The position numbers were made by a program, and so were the translations under genes. This document shows, piece by piece, positions 46,736 to 52,946 of a stretch of DNA of 64,000 bases. The notes under the pieces are model-generated. The model saw only the letters and a program-made list of their open reading frames with translations, ran no database searches and was not told the DNA's origin. How positions within the stretch are numbered: position 1 is the first letter of the stretch; each line of letters begins with the position of its first letter. Source of the stretch: Antedon mediterranea (taxonomy: Eukaryota > Echinodermata > Crinoidea > Comatulida > Antedonidae); the NCBI RefSeq assembly GCF_964355755.1, contig NC_092671.1:38829304-38893303 (forward strand), given 5' to 3'.

Positions 46736-47849
46736 ATTGTTTGTCTTACTGTATTTTAAAAGCGCCTTTGAGAATGTTTATTCGTGAAAAGAGCGCTACA
46801 GTATATAAATGTGGTATATTATTAACTACCCTAACAAATCAACCAATTACTATAGCAAGTCTTCAAAAGAGAATATTATTAAAATATTATTTGAAAATCA
46901 GACAACAATTAACATTTATGTTTGTACAGGTTAACTCTATAACAATACAAAACAAATTTGTAGAAGATCTACTGACCTTTACTTTGTGTCCTATAAAAGT
47001 AAACCTAAAATGAGCATGCTGCAAACAAGAACTGAAATCTACGGTTTTACTATACCACAACTTTTTAAACAGTGTGTTTGCTAAAAACCAATAGTGATTT
47101 TCATTGATTGTTCAGACAGACAGGAAGACCACATGAGAAATTAATAATTTCACATTAATATTTTTTACATTGAAAATGATTTTCTATTGCGCAATATGTT
47201 CAGGGTTGTCTGAAACTTTCAATTTTCACTACCTACTGTACCTCAAATCCCCAGCAGATATCGTCATATTTTAATTCAAAGCATCTTTGCCTCGTCTGTT
47301 TTAAACCTTTTGCTACAGCGTTGATGTTACATTCAATGTGTACAATACTATTGTACACTATTTAAGATAACTTTAGCATTAATGATAAGTTGTGGGTGAA
47401 TTGTGAATGTTGAAATACTAAAATTGGATACTTAAAAAATAGATTTTAAGGTAGATGAAAAAAAGGGTTTTAGTAATTGTTGTAGACACAACGGTATATA
47501 ATTAACAACTACTAATATAATGTAAAAAAGCTATATAATTTATTTCCAAGTGAATAACATATTAGATTCAAATCGATGAACAATAGATAAGATTGCAACA
47601 AGCTAGAAATGATGTGTATCAGGTAAGGATGAATGTTACTGTGTGTTTTAACTTTAGATACCAGTGATATTAAGAGTTTCACCAGTCACATACTTTGACC
47701 AATAGGAATTAAGAATTATAATAATGTCCTTATCATATGGATAGGGAGTGACCACATTCCTACATGTAGACTAGTGTACTGTGGGCTAATTAGGTGATCA
47801 TTTAGAATAAAATGATCACCTATTGTTATTGTACAAAATCTTTATTATT

Positions 47850-50800
47850 AGTTATCCGCTTAGTAGCGGATAACTCCTTGTAATCGTCCTGTTACTTTTT
47901 TTTTTTTTTTTTTTTTTTAGTTATCCGCTTGGTATACCAAGCGGATAACTCCTTGTTATTGTATGAGATCAACATTTTTTTTCTGTATTATTCTTCTTTC
48001 CATCCTTCCTTTTTGTGGATCGCGTTTCTCTAAAATGTGTAAACATAACATTTCATAACTTTGACAACATATGGGCATTTACGTGAAGTTGTGCACCTCC
48101 TATTTTTGAATGACGTCATAGTTGCGCAACGTGACTTACGCGCAATTTTATGAATTTCAATGATTGATCATAGATTAAAAACCAAAAGTCATTTAGTATT
48201 GACACTTTGACAAAATTTAAGTCATATCAGGGGCAAACTTTCTACGGATTAGAAATGGCATGTTTCACAAGAAGTTACGCACGCACGCGCATTTAAAATT
48301 TCAAAATGCGCAAAATTAATTTCTAATCAACTTTTTATGCGTTTCTTGTCATTTTGAGCATGTCAAAAATTCCCACGGGCGCGCAATTTTTTACGCACGC
48401 GGTGCGCACGTAGCGTTAAAAACATTTTTTTTTTCTTGAATTATATTTTTCAAGTCTTTCCTAGTAATTTTGAAAACAATTTAGACCTTTTCCAATTTAA
48501 ATAACGCCACACGAACACGTTGAATTAAACATTTCATGCGCGTTTTTTATGAAAAAGCTTAAAAAATCGTCAAAATTTTGTCTTTTTTTAAACAGTCATA
48601 GTTTCTAAAGTAAACCGTGAACCGTTTATTTTTATTACAAAATCTAGAAGTTGATGAGTTGTAGATATCGGATCATGCATCGATAAGGCTAAAAAAACAT
48701 TGTGACGTCATCGTATGGCCACACGAATGTAAAATATAGGATTTTTGTCTCTTTCGTTATTGCTCATCACATTCAATGGAGCGCATCACGCTTATCTGTT
48801 TTCCTTTTTCTCCTACATTTATACATTGTGTAGGTCAATCAACTTTCTTTAGCATGAGATAAAAATATTTTAATTTTTATGACGTCATCATGCCTAAAAA
48901 TTTTAATTACGTGGGTCATTAATTTCATCTTTACAGTAAATTTTATTCTGTAATAGCTCGTAAGAATAAAATGTGATAATCACGATTAAAACGTTTTCTG
49001 GAAGCAATTGGATTGTAGATACGAATTCATGTAAACATTTTGCCAATCGGATGTTGTGACGTCATCATATGGCCAGTTGAATAAAAAAAGTTGTATTTTT
49101 ATATTTTGCGTAATAGTTCATCACATTTAAAAGGGTGCGCATCTATATTTTACGTATTCAAATTTCTTCTACACGTTAATATGTTGTTCCTAAGATAATT
49201 TCCTTCTGAAATTGCTATCTAAGTGTTTCATTTTGATACCGTCGCCATGTTAAAAATTGGAATAAATGGCGGGTCCCGTAATTTCACCTATTCTACACTG
49301 TATGTAATATGTATACAGATTATACTGTTTGCATGTATATACTATATGACACAAAATTGACAGAATTCAGCACTAACAGCATATCATATTCTTCAGTTCT
49401 TGTCATAATGCCATAATCTTTATCTGTGTGCAATATTCCAACGTATGACGTGCACGTGGCGTTTGTCGTGGTGCGGATAACTAACTCGTCAAAGTGACGA
49501 GTTTCATGTCTAGTTTTTCTTATTTCTTTCTCCCTCATTTTTGTGCCTCACGTATCTCAAAAACTTGTAAACATAACATTTCATAACTTTGTCAACATAT
49601 GGGCATTTACATGAAGTTGTGCACCTCCTATTTTTGAATGACGTCAGAGTTGCGCAACGTGACTTACGTGCGATTTTATGATTTTTTATGATTGATCATA
49701 GACTAAAAACCAAGCATAAATTTGTTTTGACACTTTGTGAAAATTTAAGTCATATCAAGGGCAAACTTTTTGTGGATTAAAAATGCCATGTTTTACAAGA
49801 CGTTACGCGCGCACGCGCATTTCTCCTCTATTTTTGTATCTCGCGTATCTCAAAAACGTGTAAACATAACATTTAATAACTTTGTCAACATATGGGCATT
49901 CACGTGAAGTTGTGCACCTCCTATTGTGAATGACGTCAGAAATGCGCAACGTGACTTACGCACGATTTTATGAATTTCGCGTATTTAACATAGATTTAAA
50001 ACCATATAACAATTTAAATTGAAACTTAGCAAAACTTTAATTTATATCATGCGCTAACTTTTTGTGGAAAAAAATTGCGTGTTTTACACAAAGTTACGCG
50101 CGCACGCGCATTTAAAATTCAAAATGCGCAAAATTAATTTTTAATCAACTTTCTACGCTGATCATGACATTTTGACCATGTCAAAATTTCCCACGCGCGC
50201 GAACAATTTTATGCGCGTGGTGCGCACGTAGCGCTAAAAGTATTTTTTTTTTATTGAATTATGTTTTTCCAGCCTTTTATAGTAATTTTACAAATTTTAA
50301 AACAATTTCGACTTACAATTACGTCATACGGGCACGTTGAATTGGATACTTTACGTGCGTTTTTGATGAAAAAGTTCAAAAATTTGTCAAAATTATGCCT
50401 ATTTTTAAACAGTCATAGATTCTAAACTACGTGGAGAACTTTTTTTTAATTACATATTCTGGAAGTTGATGAGTTGTAGATATCGGATCATGCATTAATA
50501 TGGCTAACCGGAAATTGTGACGTCATCGTATGGCCACACGAATGTAAAATATAGGATTTTTGTCTCTTTCGTTATTGCTCATCACATTTAATAGAGCACA
50601 TCTCCACTTATTCGTTGTCCATTTTCACCCCGATTTTAATATAATCTTGGTCAATCAACTATCTTTTGCATGAATTAAATTTTTTTCTATTTTTTTAACG
50701 TCATCATGCCTAAAAATTTAAATTACGTTGGTCATTAATTTCATCTTTACAGTAAATTTTAATCTGTTTTAGCTCGTAAGAATAAAATGTGATAATCACG

Positions 50801-51334
50801 ATTAAAACGTTTTCAGGAAGCTATTGTATTGTAGATACAAAATCATGTGAACTTTTTGCCAATCAGATGTTGTGACGTCATCATATGGCCAGTTGAATAA
50901 AAAAAGTTGTATTTTCATATTTTGCGTAATAGTTCATCACATTTAAAAGGGTGCGCATCTATATTTTACGTATTCAAATTTCTTCTACACGTTAATATGT
51001 TGTTCCTAAGATAATTTCCTTCTGAAATTGCTATCTAAGTGTTTCATTTTGATACCGTCGCCATGTTAAAAATTGCAATAAATGGCGGATCCCGTAATTT
51101 CACCTATTCTACACTGTATATAATATGTATACAGATTATACTGTAGTGTTTGCATGTATATACTATATGACACAAAATTGACAGAATTCAGCACTAACAG
51201 CATATCATATTCTTCAGTTCTTTTCATAATGCCATAATCTTTATCTGTGTGCAACATTCCAACGTATGACGTGCACGTGGCGTTTGTCGTGGTGCGGATA
51301 ACTAACTCGTCAAAGTGACGAGTTTCATGTCTAG
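47850..51334 (+). mobile_element. Helentron-like element Y1, nested in X
   Basis: 5' palindrome 47850-47875 (AGTTATCCGCT, TAGT, AGCGGATAACT). The 3' subterminal GCGGATAACT (51294-51303) is the inverse of its first ten bases, then comes the hairpin AACTCGTCA-AAG-TGACGAGTT and CTAG (51331-51334). Without Y2 it is 1890 bp. Its left part contains a block duplicated at about 297-bp spacing (49551 and 49848), both starting ATCTCAAAAACKTGTAAACA. Confidence 0.75.
47919..49513 (+). mobile_element. Helentron-like element Y2, nested in Y1
   Basis: 5' palindrome 47919-47950: a perfect 32-bp inverted repeat starting AGTTATCCGCTTGGTA. The 3' GCGGATAACT (49473-49482), hairpin 49483-49503 and CTAG (49510-49513) follow. 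The 1595-bp body is closely similar to Y1, especially the last 450 bp. It is inserted in a poly-T run of Y1. Confidence 0.8.
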
Positions 51335-52946
51335 TTATTGTTATTATTCTTCTTTCTGTACACTTTTTGTTTAGCAATTATCTCAAAAACTTGAATAACA
51401 ATGATCACACAAATTTCACAATGTCTTTCAAATACTTTAACTTAGCCATAATAAGCTTTTCAGCGGGATCACTCAACCGTGACGTTACGTATACGCGATT
51501 TTGTGAAATCACATTATCAATCATATGTCCATAATTGATTATCAAATATTTATGAAATTCACTACACGTAAATTTCAGGTCAAGGTAAAAAATATTAGCA
51601 AATAAAAACTCGCGCGTCTCAAGGTCATGCACGTGAAATCGCGCGTAAAGATTTTAAAAAGGTCAAAATTAAGTTTTGATCAATTTAGAGCATGAATTAG
51701 GCCATTTGCGTGTTTCAAAAAATTACTGCGCAAAAATACGTTTTTGCGCACGCAATCCTTAAAAAGCGTAGAAAATAAAATTTGATGTGTACATCACATT
51801 CTGCACACAATCCTTAGTACATTCTCCGATTTTGAGTCCAGTCCGACTTAAAATAACGGTATACGAGCAAGTTAAACATGACAAAATGCGCACATTAATT
51901 GAACAAAAGTGCTAAAAATGGTAAAAAGTAGGGCCCTTTTAAAATGAATATAACTCTTCAGAATGGAAGATGACCCCCAATTTTTTTAACTTAATATGGA
52001 AGCCAATGAGTTGCAGATATAAATGTATATACACATTAGACGTACAAAATGGTATGACGTCATCAAATGGCCACTTGAATTTAAAAATTAGTAATTTTTA
52101 TCTTTTTGTGTGGGTTATCACATTCAATAGAGCGCATCTCCGTTATTTGAACCAAATTTTTGCTCAACTTTTAGTATGTGCTTGCTCAATTAATTATCTT
52201 TCTCATGAGTTGTCAACATTTTCATTTTGATGACGTCATCATGCGTAAAAACTTGAATAACCTAGGTCGTGTATTTTCAGCTACACCATACATTTGAATA
52301 TCTTACAGCTCTTCAGAATTAAAGGTGACCTTGAAGATTATAACTTATTATGAAAGCTGATTAAATGTAGATATGAATTCATATAAAAATTAAGCCTATC
52401 GGATGTTGTGACGTTATCTTATGGCCAGTTGAAGTTAAAAAGTAGTTTTTAAATTTCTTTAGTTGAAGTTATACAAATTTCAAAGAGCGCGCATTGCGCT
52501 TCTACGTGTCAAATTCTCTTCCAATCCTTATATTTATTTGCTCAATTCATTATCTTTCGTAATTGTCATCTTCGAGTTTATTTTGATAATTCTATCATAC
52601 CAACAATTTAGAACACGATGTGGGTCCCGTAATTTCACCTACGCTACACTGTATATAGATATACAGTATATACTGTACATATTGTATATGGCATATGATA
52701 GGCACTATAAGCGTATGCATCATGTCATAGGATGGCGTACATCAACTTTTTACGATCGTATGTTAACGTACATGCATGTTTAAAAAATGTTAATTTCATT
52801 AAAATGATAAAAATGATCACCTATAATTCGTCAAAGTGACGAATTAAATTCTAGTTAATACTTATTATTACTTTTACTGGAAAAAGTTGGTAACTGCCTA
52901 AACGACCTTGCTATGTAGAGATAAATGCAAGGTTGTTGAACTCTAT

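Follow-up and report, generated by a model that had tools for sequence, protein, structure and literature searches.

Why should three mobile elements lie inside one another, each at almost the same internal position of its host? This question is raised by a stretch of 64,000 nucleotides from the crinoid Antedon mediterranea (contig NC_092671.1, positions 38,829,304 to 38,893,303, forward strand; "the window"), in which the elements X, Y1 and Y2, with Helentron-like ends, form a nest. We analysed the complete assembly (GCF_964355755.1, 354 Mb in 18 contigs, referred to as C1, C2 etc.), from which stretches were fetched for the parsing of element ends (loci with L numbers). It is well supported that such nests arise by repeated, mostly independent insertion at a site close to the 5′ end of resident elements. 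We consider it probable that X, Y and a third family, Z, are non-autonomous Helentrons (HINEs) and that their integration is steered by recognition of the 5′ end of a resident copy.

X, Y1 and Y2 have a common architecture, with a 5′ palindrome followed by a T-rich stretch and, on the 3′ side, the 5′ arm in inverse form, an AAG-loop hairpin, CTAG and a T. Their parts are given here by position in the window, with z values for folding.

47792 to 52854, plus strand: X, the outermost element, ends located; 1578 bp without inserts
47792 to 47821, plus strand: 5′ palindrome of X (z -5.6)
47822 to 47849, plus strand: 5′ landing site of X (ATTGTTATTGTACAAAATCTTTATTATT); Y1 starts at host offset 58
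47850 to 51334, plus strand: Y1, inside X; 1890 bp once Y2 is taken out
47850 to 47875, plus strand: 5′ palindrome of Y1, loop type TTAGTA (z -9.6)
47876 to 47918, plus strand: 5′ landing site of Y1, with a long T run at its end; Y2 starts at host offset 69
47919 to 49513, plus strand: Y2, the innermost element; 1595 bp
47919 to 47950, plus strand: 5′ palindrome of Y2, loop type TTGGTATACCAA (z -7.8)
49473 to 49513, plus strand: 3′ end of Y2, with the inverse of the 5′ arm, the hairpin AACTCGTCA-AAG-TGACGAGTT and CTAG
49527 to 50113, plus strand: tandem duplication of 297 bp in Y1 (copies 49527-49822 and 49820-50113, 83% identical)
51294 to 51334, plus strand: 3′ end of Y1, with arm, hairpin and CTAG
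52811 to 52854, plus strand: 3′ end of X, with the arm AAATGATCACCT, the hairpin AATTCGTCA-AAG-TGACGAATT and CTAG

All six ends match, to the base, the positions given in an initial annotation made from the sequence alone. The pairing proposed there (47792 with 52854, 47850 with 51334, 47919 with 49513) places each inner element wholly inside the next, and the entry points of 58 bp in X and 69 bp in Y1 were found as described. Within the window, exact X and Y arms are confined to the nested locus (AGGTGATCATTT at 47792, AGTTATCCGC at 47850 and 47919). Hairpins of the type TCGTCAAAGTGACGA, searched with up to two mismatches, occur only at 49486, 51307 and 52828, all of them exact and all at 3′ ends. 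When folded as single-stranded DNA, the six ends reach z values of -3.3 to -9.6 against shuffled sequences, with none or one of 200 shuffles folding equally well. The inner elements were removed in silico, and the restored X agrees with 13 insert-free X copies found elsewhere in the genome (1563-1593 bp), while the excess length of Y1 is accounted for by its internal tandem duplication. The nearest relative of Y2 among the fetched copies is in L038 (97.2% identity). No open reading frame (ORF) of more than 106 amino acids was found in the span of the three elements, which therefore look non-coding. X, Y1 and Y2 are confirmed as properly nested, non-coding Helentron copies of the HINE type.

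The ends of these families are abundant. Exact patterns matched X ends at 517 (5′) and 526 (3′) places and Y ends at 1049 (5′) and 1039 (3′) places in the whole genome, where reversed control patterns of the X and Y ends gave no match. The third family, Z (GGTTATCCGC... / ...GCGGATAACC-hairpin-CTAG), turned up within nests. In a contig-wide parse, based on exact X and Y ends (to the exclusion of Z ends) on contig 1 and on C2 below 13.86 Mb, consecutive 5′ ends on the same strand (36 distances) are spaced by 51-76 bp, by 125-201 bp or by at least 1643 bp, and no spacing of 202-1642 bp occurs. Where the intermediate class was fetched, there was mostly one more unit in between. Successive Y 3′ ends are mostly about 1510 bp apart, which is the element minus its first 65 bp. 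Nesting behind the 5′ palindrome leaves its mark in these spacing classes. On contig 1 and in 13.86 Mb of C2, at least 27 of 85 X and at least 23 of 93 Y 5′ ends are occupied by another element behind the palindrome (X/Y inserts plus Z inserts, summed by hand). The initial annotation had supposed that the family tends to grow as nested dolls and had proposed a genome-wide tabulation of the nesting position. Inserts were found to cluster directly behind the 5′ palindrome, and this type of nesting is a genome-wide rule.

The fetched loci, many of which were picked for stacks or arrays, provided a strand-checked set of 63 free-standing, 59 stacked and 34 tail-to-head 5′ ends (L008 left out). The stacked ends, of which 57 are distinct by flank and 5 come from L013, lie 51-128 bp behind the previous 5′ end, all but two of them at 51-85 bp. 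Of 61 insertions within X, Y or Z hosts, 59 are at the 5′ site and two are elsewhere in the bodies. Inside the clusters of the contig-wide parse there is no exact X or Y end on the opposite strand. Both the fetched insertions and the contig spacing thus support a landing preference for the site behind the 5′ palindrome; the "almost same internal position" of the initial annotation stands as the rule for 59 of 61 cases, with two reversed Z copies elsewhere as exceptions to it.

Some stacks are several units deep. A Y 5′ stack at C4:19496551-19496766 has four units at equal, identical intervals (slippage or exchange), and one at C4:20621756-20622053 has six units of mixed subfamilies. About seven X 5′ units are stacked in L013 (C1:21821850-21827000), where part of the stack looks internally duplicated and no recognisable X 3′ end is found in the 4.6 kb that follow.

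The order of the ends can be read like brackets. When ends in multi-end loci were treated as typed brackets, 61 of the 66 typed 3′ ends that meet an open element close one of the matching type, and 21 close an element that holds an insert. The nest in L006, for example, reads X( Z( Y( Y) Y( Y) Z) X). The parse contains 49 stack junctions (the duplicate L008 left out, the strand of L014 corrected); its remainder consists of 17 closings without an open element and 43 unclosed openings, many of these at the edges of fetched stretches. After removal of the inserts, 17 of 21 host bodies measure 1464-1610 bp, the outlying ones being X in L009 (1276 bp), in L031 (1653 bp) and in L017 (3106 bp), and Y1 of the window (1890 bp). 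Distances of 421 and 585 bp between 3′ ends, considered as counter-examples, proved to be nests at the 5′ site whose host has an internal deletion (L062, L063). Bodies of odd length contain other elements: one with long inverted repeats in L025, further ones in L029, L035 and L036, and in L026 an insert with what, on our own reading of the letters, looks like a retrotransposon-like 3′ end. In L035 (C1:5800800-5803650) and L036 (C1:5766200-5769150), two Y copies have one and the same 972-bp insertion, which is none of X, Y and Z, at the same place, which means that a Y copy with another element inside it was itself copied or duplicated.

What directs the inserts to this site? The left flanks of the 63 free-standing copies have the form T(A/T)ATT, with the final T in all 63 cases and TAATT or TTATT in 47. 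On the right, all 100 parsed 3′ ends are followed by T. A comparison of restored hosts with uninterrupted copies revealed no target duplication beyond Ts; these few alignments suggest that the insert brings one T per side and that the target is T(A/T)AT. Insertion between Ts, as stated initially, is therefore seen at the borders, but on the left T(A/T)AT is preferred, and a T on each side seems to come with the insert.

One explanation would be a passive T-rich pad, i.e. good target sequence that happens to lie behind the 5′ palindrome and is hit because of its sequence alone. The 5′ site does hold motifs such as those in the 47 flanks, and the reversed Z copies in two bodies show that other sites are used as well. 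A second common spot, directly behind the 3′ end of a resident element, fits too: the order CTAG-TT-new 5′ end is found exactly in 27 of 34 tail-to-head cases, and TAGTT, two Ts after CTAG, nearly recreates the preferred target. However, when all host positions are weighted by the flanks that free-standing copies prefer, the motif predicts a 5′-site share of 8.5% for X, 16.4% for Y and 7.1% for Z on both strands (11-25% on the same strand only), as compared to the 59 of 61 insertions seen there. Against the highest both-strand share of 16.4%, this gives P 6e-44, which serves only as a guide because many loci were selected for stacks. Moreover, X uses X sites and hardly ever Y sites, even though the latter are at least as T-rich and more numerous. 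We consider it unlikely that the target sequence acts alone. The T-rich landing site of the initial annotation is real but incomplete as a cause, given the motif share of 7-16% and the avoidance of Y sites by X.

There is a bias between families. Y inserts occur 261 times at Y sites and 52 times at X sites (65 matches minus 13 tail-to-head cases). X inserts at X sites number at least 28, counted by eye among the best 100 of 254 matches and with some in one C3 cluster, and at least 3, with one more doubtful, are at Z sites (best 100 of 123 matches); at Y sites, a single exact match exists in the whole genome. At least 81 Z inserts at X sites are among the best 100 of 123 matches, again by eye. 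The ratio of X to Y inserts is 28:52 in X hosts and 1:261 in Y hosts (Fisher p 7.5e-19, copies in one cluster possibly being non-independent), although Y sites are as T-rich as X sites and twice as many (1049 versus 517 5′ ends). Because of this family bias, together with the distance and the usual orientation, recognition of the resident end is favoured over a passive pad.

A nest or stack could also grow from a single insertion by local amplification, through rolling-circle concatemers, slippage or unequal crossing-over. The identical units at C4:19496551-19496766, three like Z units in L021, the X units of L013 without recognised bodies, and bodies in L017 and L019 with no 5′ unit would fit such a process, as would sister copies in two loci. 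Closest relatives among the fetched copies, however, are found in the same locus for none of 13 Y copies, as compared to 2 of 4 X copies (the tail-to-head pair of L015, 97-98%) and 2 of 4 Z copies (the nested pair of L041, 97.7%). Y copies that share a locus show 82-93% identity among themselves, and several of them match copies at other loci at 97-98%. Likewise, the X nested in L002 shares 98.5% identity with an X in L011 and 88.2% with its own host. The stacks mix X, Y and Z and several loop types, and 5′ and 3′ ends are balanced genome-wide (517:526 and 1049:1039), which also argues against local amplification. Tail-to-head neighbours belong to different families in 11 of 34 cases, and the eight alignable pairs are 81-97% identical, so that most look like separate insertions and not like concatemers. 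As a general account of the nests, local amplification is very unlikely.

Alternatively, a nest could have formed once and moved as a unit, leaving the same junction at many loci. Distant loci do repeat identical junction letters, and a chimeric-excision model has been published for FoHeli of Fusarium (PMC5148889). The sets with shared junctions mostly speak against it. L064/L065 and L066/L067, pairs with identical junction letters, are only about 85% identical. Five loci whose hosts belong to one subfamily have the insert at position 74 of the host; their flanks differ, the inserts are of three loop types, and the compared part of the inserts (bases 60-240) is 57-94% alike. In three loci with an insert at position 56, the inserts are 78-95% alike, the 95% pair being L101/L102, with different flanks and the same junction position. 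L007/L008 is a segmental duplicate, as the flanks match as well. Composite mobility as the source of identical junction letters was thus rejected for most sets tested, L101/L102 excepted, and we rate it as highly improbable overall. The same host base appears to have been hit repeatedly, mostly by different copies.

We therefore return to recognition of the resident 5′ end. A rolling-circle Rep/helicase/endonuclease would move X, Y and Z. New copies would arrive mostly independently, usually in the same orientation and about 51-85 bp inside the resident 5′ end, at a T(A/T)AT-like site right behind the 5′ palindrome, and repeated rounds would yield nests of the type found in L006. The integrating Rep-DNA complex would recognise the terminal structure of the resident, most likely the 5′ hairpin, and then nick the adjoining T-rich strand. 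A near-fixed distance, the usual orientation, few insertions into bodies and a family bias would follow from recognition of the end. We suggest tentatively that this is a transposon which picks its targets by a terminal hairpin of its own kind, in an orientation-biased, base-precise and partly family-specific manner, the opposite of target immunity.

A number of points weigh against this reading or restrict it. We infer end recognition, likely as it is, from the patterns of insertion. The view that no X, Y or Z copy is elsewhere or reversed is ruled out by a scan of both strands in the 59 fetched loci of at least 1 kb: L014 (C1:3167500-3173150) has a reversed Z-in-Z nest in a Z body at position 1436, and in L065 (C4:10027370-10031400) position 1348 of a Y body carries the 3′ part of a Z copy in reversed orientation, of which 216 bp were matched. 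These are the sole X/Y/Z cases in the scan (C1:5728882, C1:5797817, C2:5501918 and C2:11810412 being outside the fetched loci), and further off-site Z copies may exist, as the contig-wide exact parse had no Z ends. L030 and L040 are without a clear parse. Five closings are mismatched: those in L007 and L008, which represent the same segmental duplication, that in L017, where a Y body is in excess, and those in L027 and L039, with degenerate inner 3′ ends. The identical neighbouring 5′ units at C4:19496551-19496766, the like units in L021 and the bodies without a 5′ unit in L017 and L019 indicate that slippage or unequal exchange acts as well. Y and Z freely enter X sites, so strictness would hold for X alone. 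Chronology as the reason for the asymmetry between X and Y is not supported, since mutual identity is on average higher among X copies than among Y copies (median nearest-neighbour identity 0.964 versus 0.920, terminal branches 0.025 versus 0.046, 26 X and 26 Y), but the samples were drawn differently, with 13 X being solo copies from contig 1 and Y coming from nests and many subfamilies, and the X sample includes one outlier (L082, 0.72). Finally, an autonomous partner came to light for Z but not for X.

For Z, the search for an autonomous relative with Rep, helicase and endonuclease, suggested initially, led to a candidate with sister (Z-type) ends. Matches to PF14214 (Helitron_like_N) occur at 87 places in the genome, 39 of them within open frames of at least 2800 amino acids. 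An ORF of 3109 amino acids on C1 carries OTU, Helitron_like_N, PIF1 and Exo_endo_phos domains; it is antisense and flanked by Z-type 5′ units (L019) and by a Z-type 3′ end at C1:11509087. These 5′ units may be those of the autonomous element itself or of nested Z copies. At a second Rep locus, three Z 5′ units lie about 8 kb from the Rep domain. Part of the autonomous element matches another locus with 100% identity over 2.4 kb, so the autonomous Z-type family was probably active recently.

Helentron-like ends had been claimed at the outset and are borne out by inverted arms, a 3′ stem-loop, CTAG and T flanks. X, Y and Z have subterminal inverted repeats (the 5′ arm recurs in inverse form close to the 3′ end), an exact 3′ stem-loop is present in 526 X ends and 1039 Y ends, insertion occurs beside T in T-rich DNA without target duplication, and for Z there is a partner with Rep, helicase and apurinic-type endonuclease domains. 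Canonical Helitrons (Helitron1) are not known to have terminal inverted repeats. They have a 5′ TC, a 3′ CTRR and A^T insertion (PMC4067079), and this class is ruled out by the ends AGGTGATC/AGTTATCC, the T flanks and the inverted arms, although CTAG does fit CTRR. The Helitron2/FoHeli class, with asymmetric terminal inverted repeats, palindromes at either end and a Rep/Hel that lacks an endonuclease, fits in terminal anatomy, but the partner ORF of Z has an endonuclease.

Several observations concern the autonomous elements themselves. Rep/helicase ORFs, mostly of about 3000 amino acids, form clusters of one orientation, in which several are spaced by about 21-24 kb (C8:799805-936734, C1:14509036-14555074, C1:23049359-23175497, C4:19884407-20017998), as if large autonomous Helentrons were themselves in arrays. 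In L020 (C7:12080800-12085200), a tandem repeat of about 343 bp is found in an autonomous Helentron near the start of the Rep ORF, and similar repeats occur at many loci elsewhere. A tRNA-His gene (L024:5406-5477, C1:11508905-11508976) is located about 110 bp past the 3′ end of the autonomous Helentron on C1. A second group with Helitron_like_N, in L022 (C1:6984700-6994699) and L023 (C8:12192500-12202499), is 98.6-98.9% identical over about 9 kb, with Rep ORFs of 1636 and 1379 amino acids. There is no TCGTCAAAGTGACGA hairpin in the fetched part of L022/L023. They represent another rolling-circle family, apparently one with recent activity.

The elements described here resemble Helentrons, HINEs and DINE-1 as treated by Thomas et al. 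2014 (PMC4067079), with subterminal inverted repeats, palindromic 5′ repeats (in HINE-Mo), a 3′ stem-loop, insertion at TT or in T-rich DNA with border Ts, and non-autonomous copies that outnumber a Rep/helicase/endonuclease partner. For Helentron-Da-40, the same paper reports a Rep ORF on the minus strand. In the sections of that paper drawn on here, clusters and neighbouring insertions are mentioned, but no recurrent use of a single base behind the 5′ palindrome as insertion point. Clustered Helitrons of bats, silkworm and maize are likewise head-to-tail neighbours, with distantly related Helitrons directly adjoining in bat and maize; the bat and silkworm arrays were put down to bypassed termination (all via PMC4067079), whereas the dominant X/Y/Z pattern is one of nesting at a single internal spot.

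A close precedent for the anatomy, as far as the consulted part of the source goes, is FoHeli of Fusarium oxysporum (Chellapan et al. 2016, PMC5148889). The first 31, 65, 73 or 85 nucleotides of its 5′ end are repeated, for which self-insertion followed by chimeric excision was proposed, and FoHeli1/2 insert between TNAT and T, which matches the T(A/T)AT of X, Y and Z. One Metarhizium locus was read there as a possible double insertion into a 5′ end. FoHeli, which is Helitron2-like, differs in that several 5′ termini are mostly combined with only one 3′ terminus, and is thought to spread as chimeras (PMC5148889). X, Y and Z, by contrast, form matched nests with bodies and 3′ ends, at hundreds of junctions, with a family bias and, in most sets tested, with independent inserts. 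We found no report of base-precise, family-biased Helitron nesting on this scale in the open-access literature, which is weak evidence; scale, base precision and family bias appear to be new.

Target choice of Helitron-type elements is a largely open question. In Antedon mediterranea, insertions hit a spot that is constant almost to the base, in known host sequence and with hundreds of replicates, which makes target choice directly testable. Nesting also explains arrays that annotation might label as satellites or assembly errors, and nests provide relative dates of family activity without the need for a clock. If end-directed self-targeting is true, inserts would pile up at one spot and each nest would be a time-ordered record of the activity of its families.

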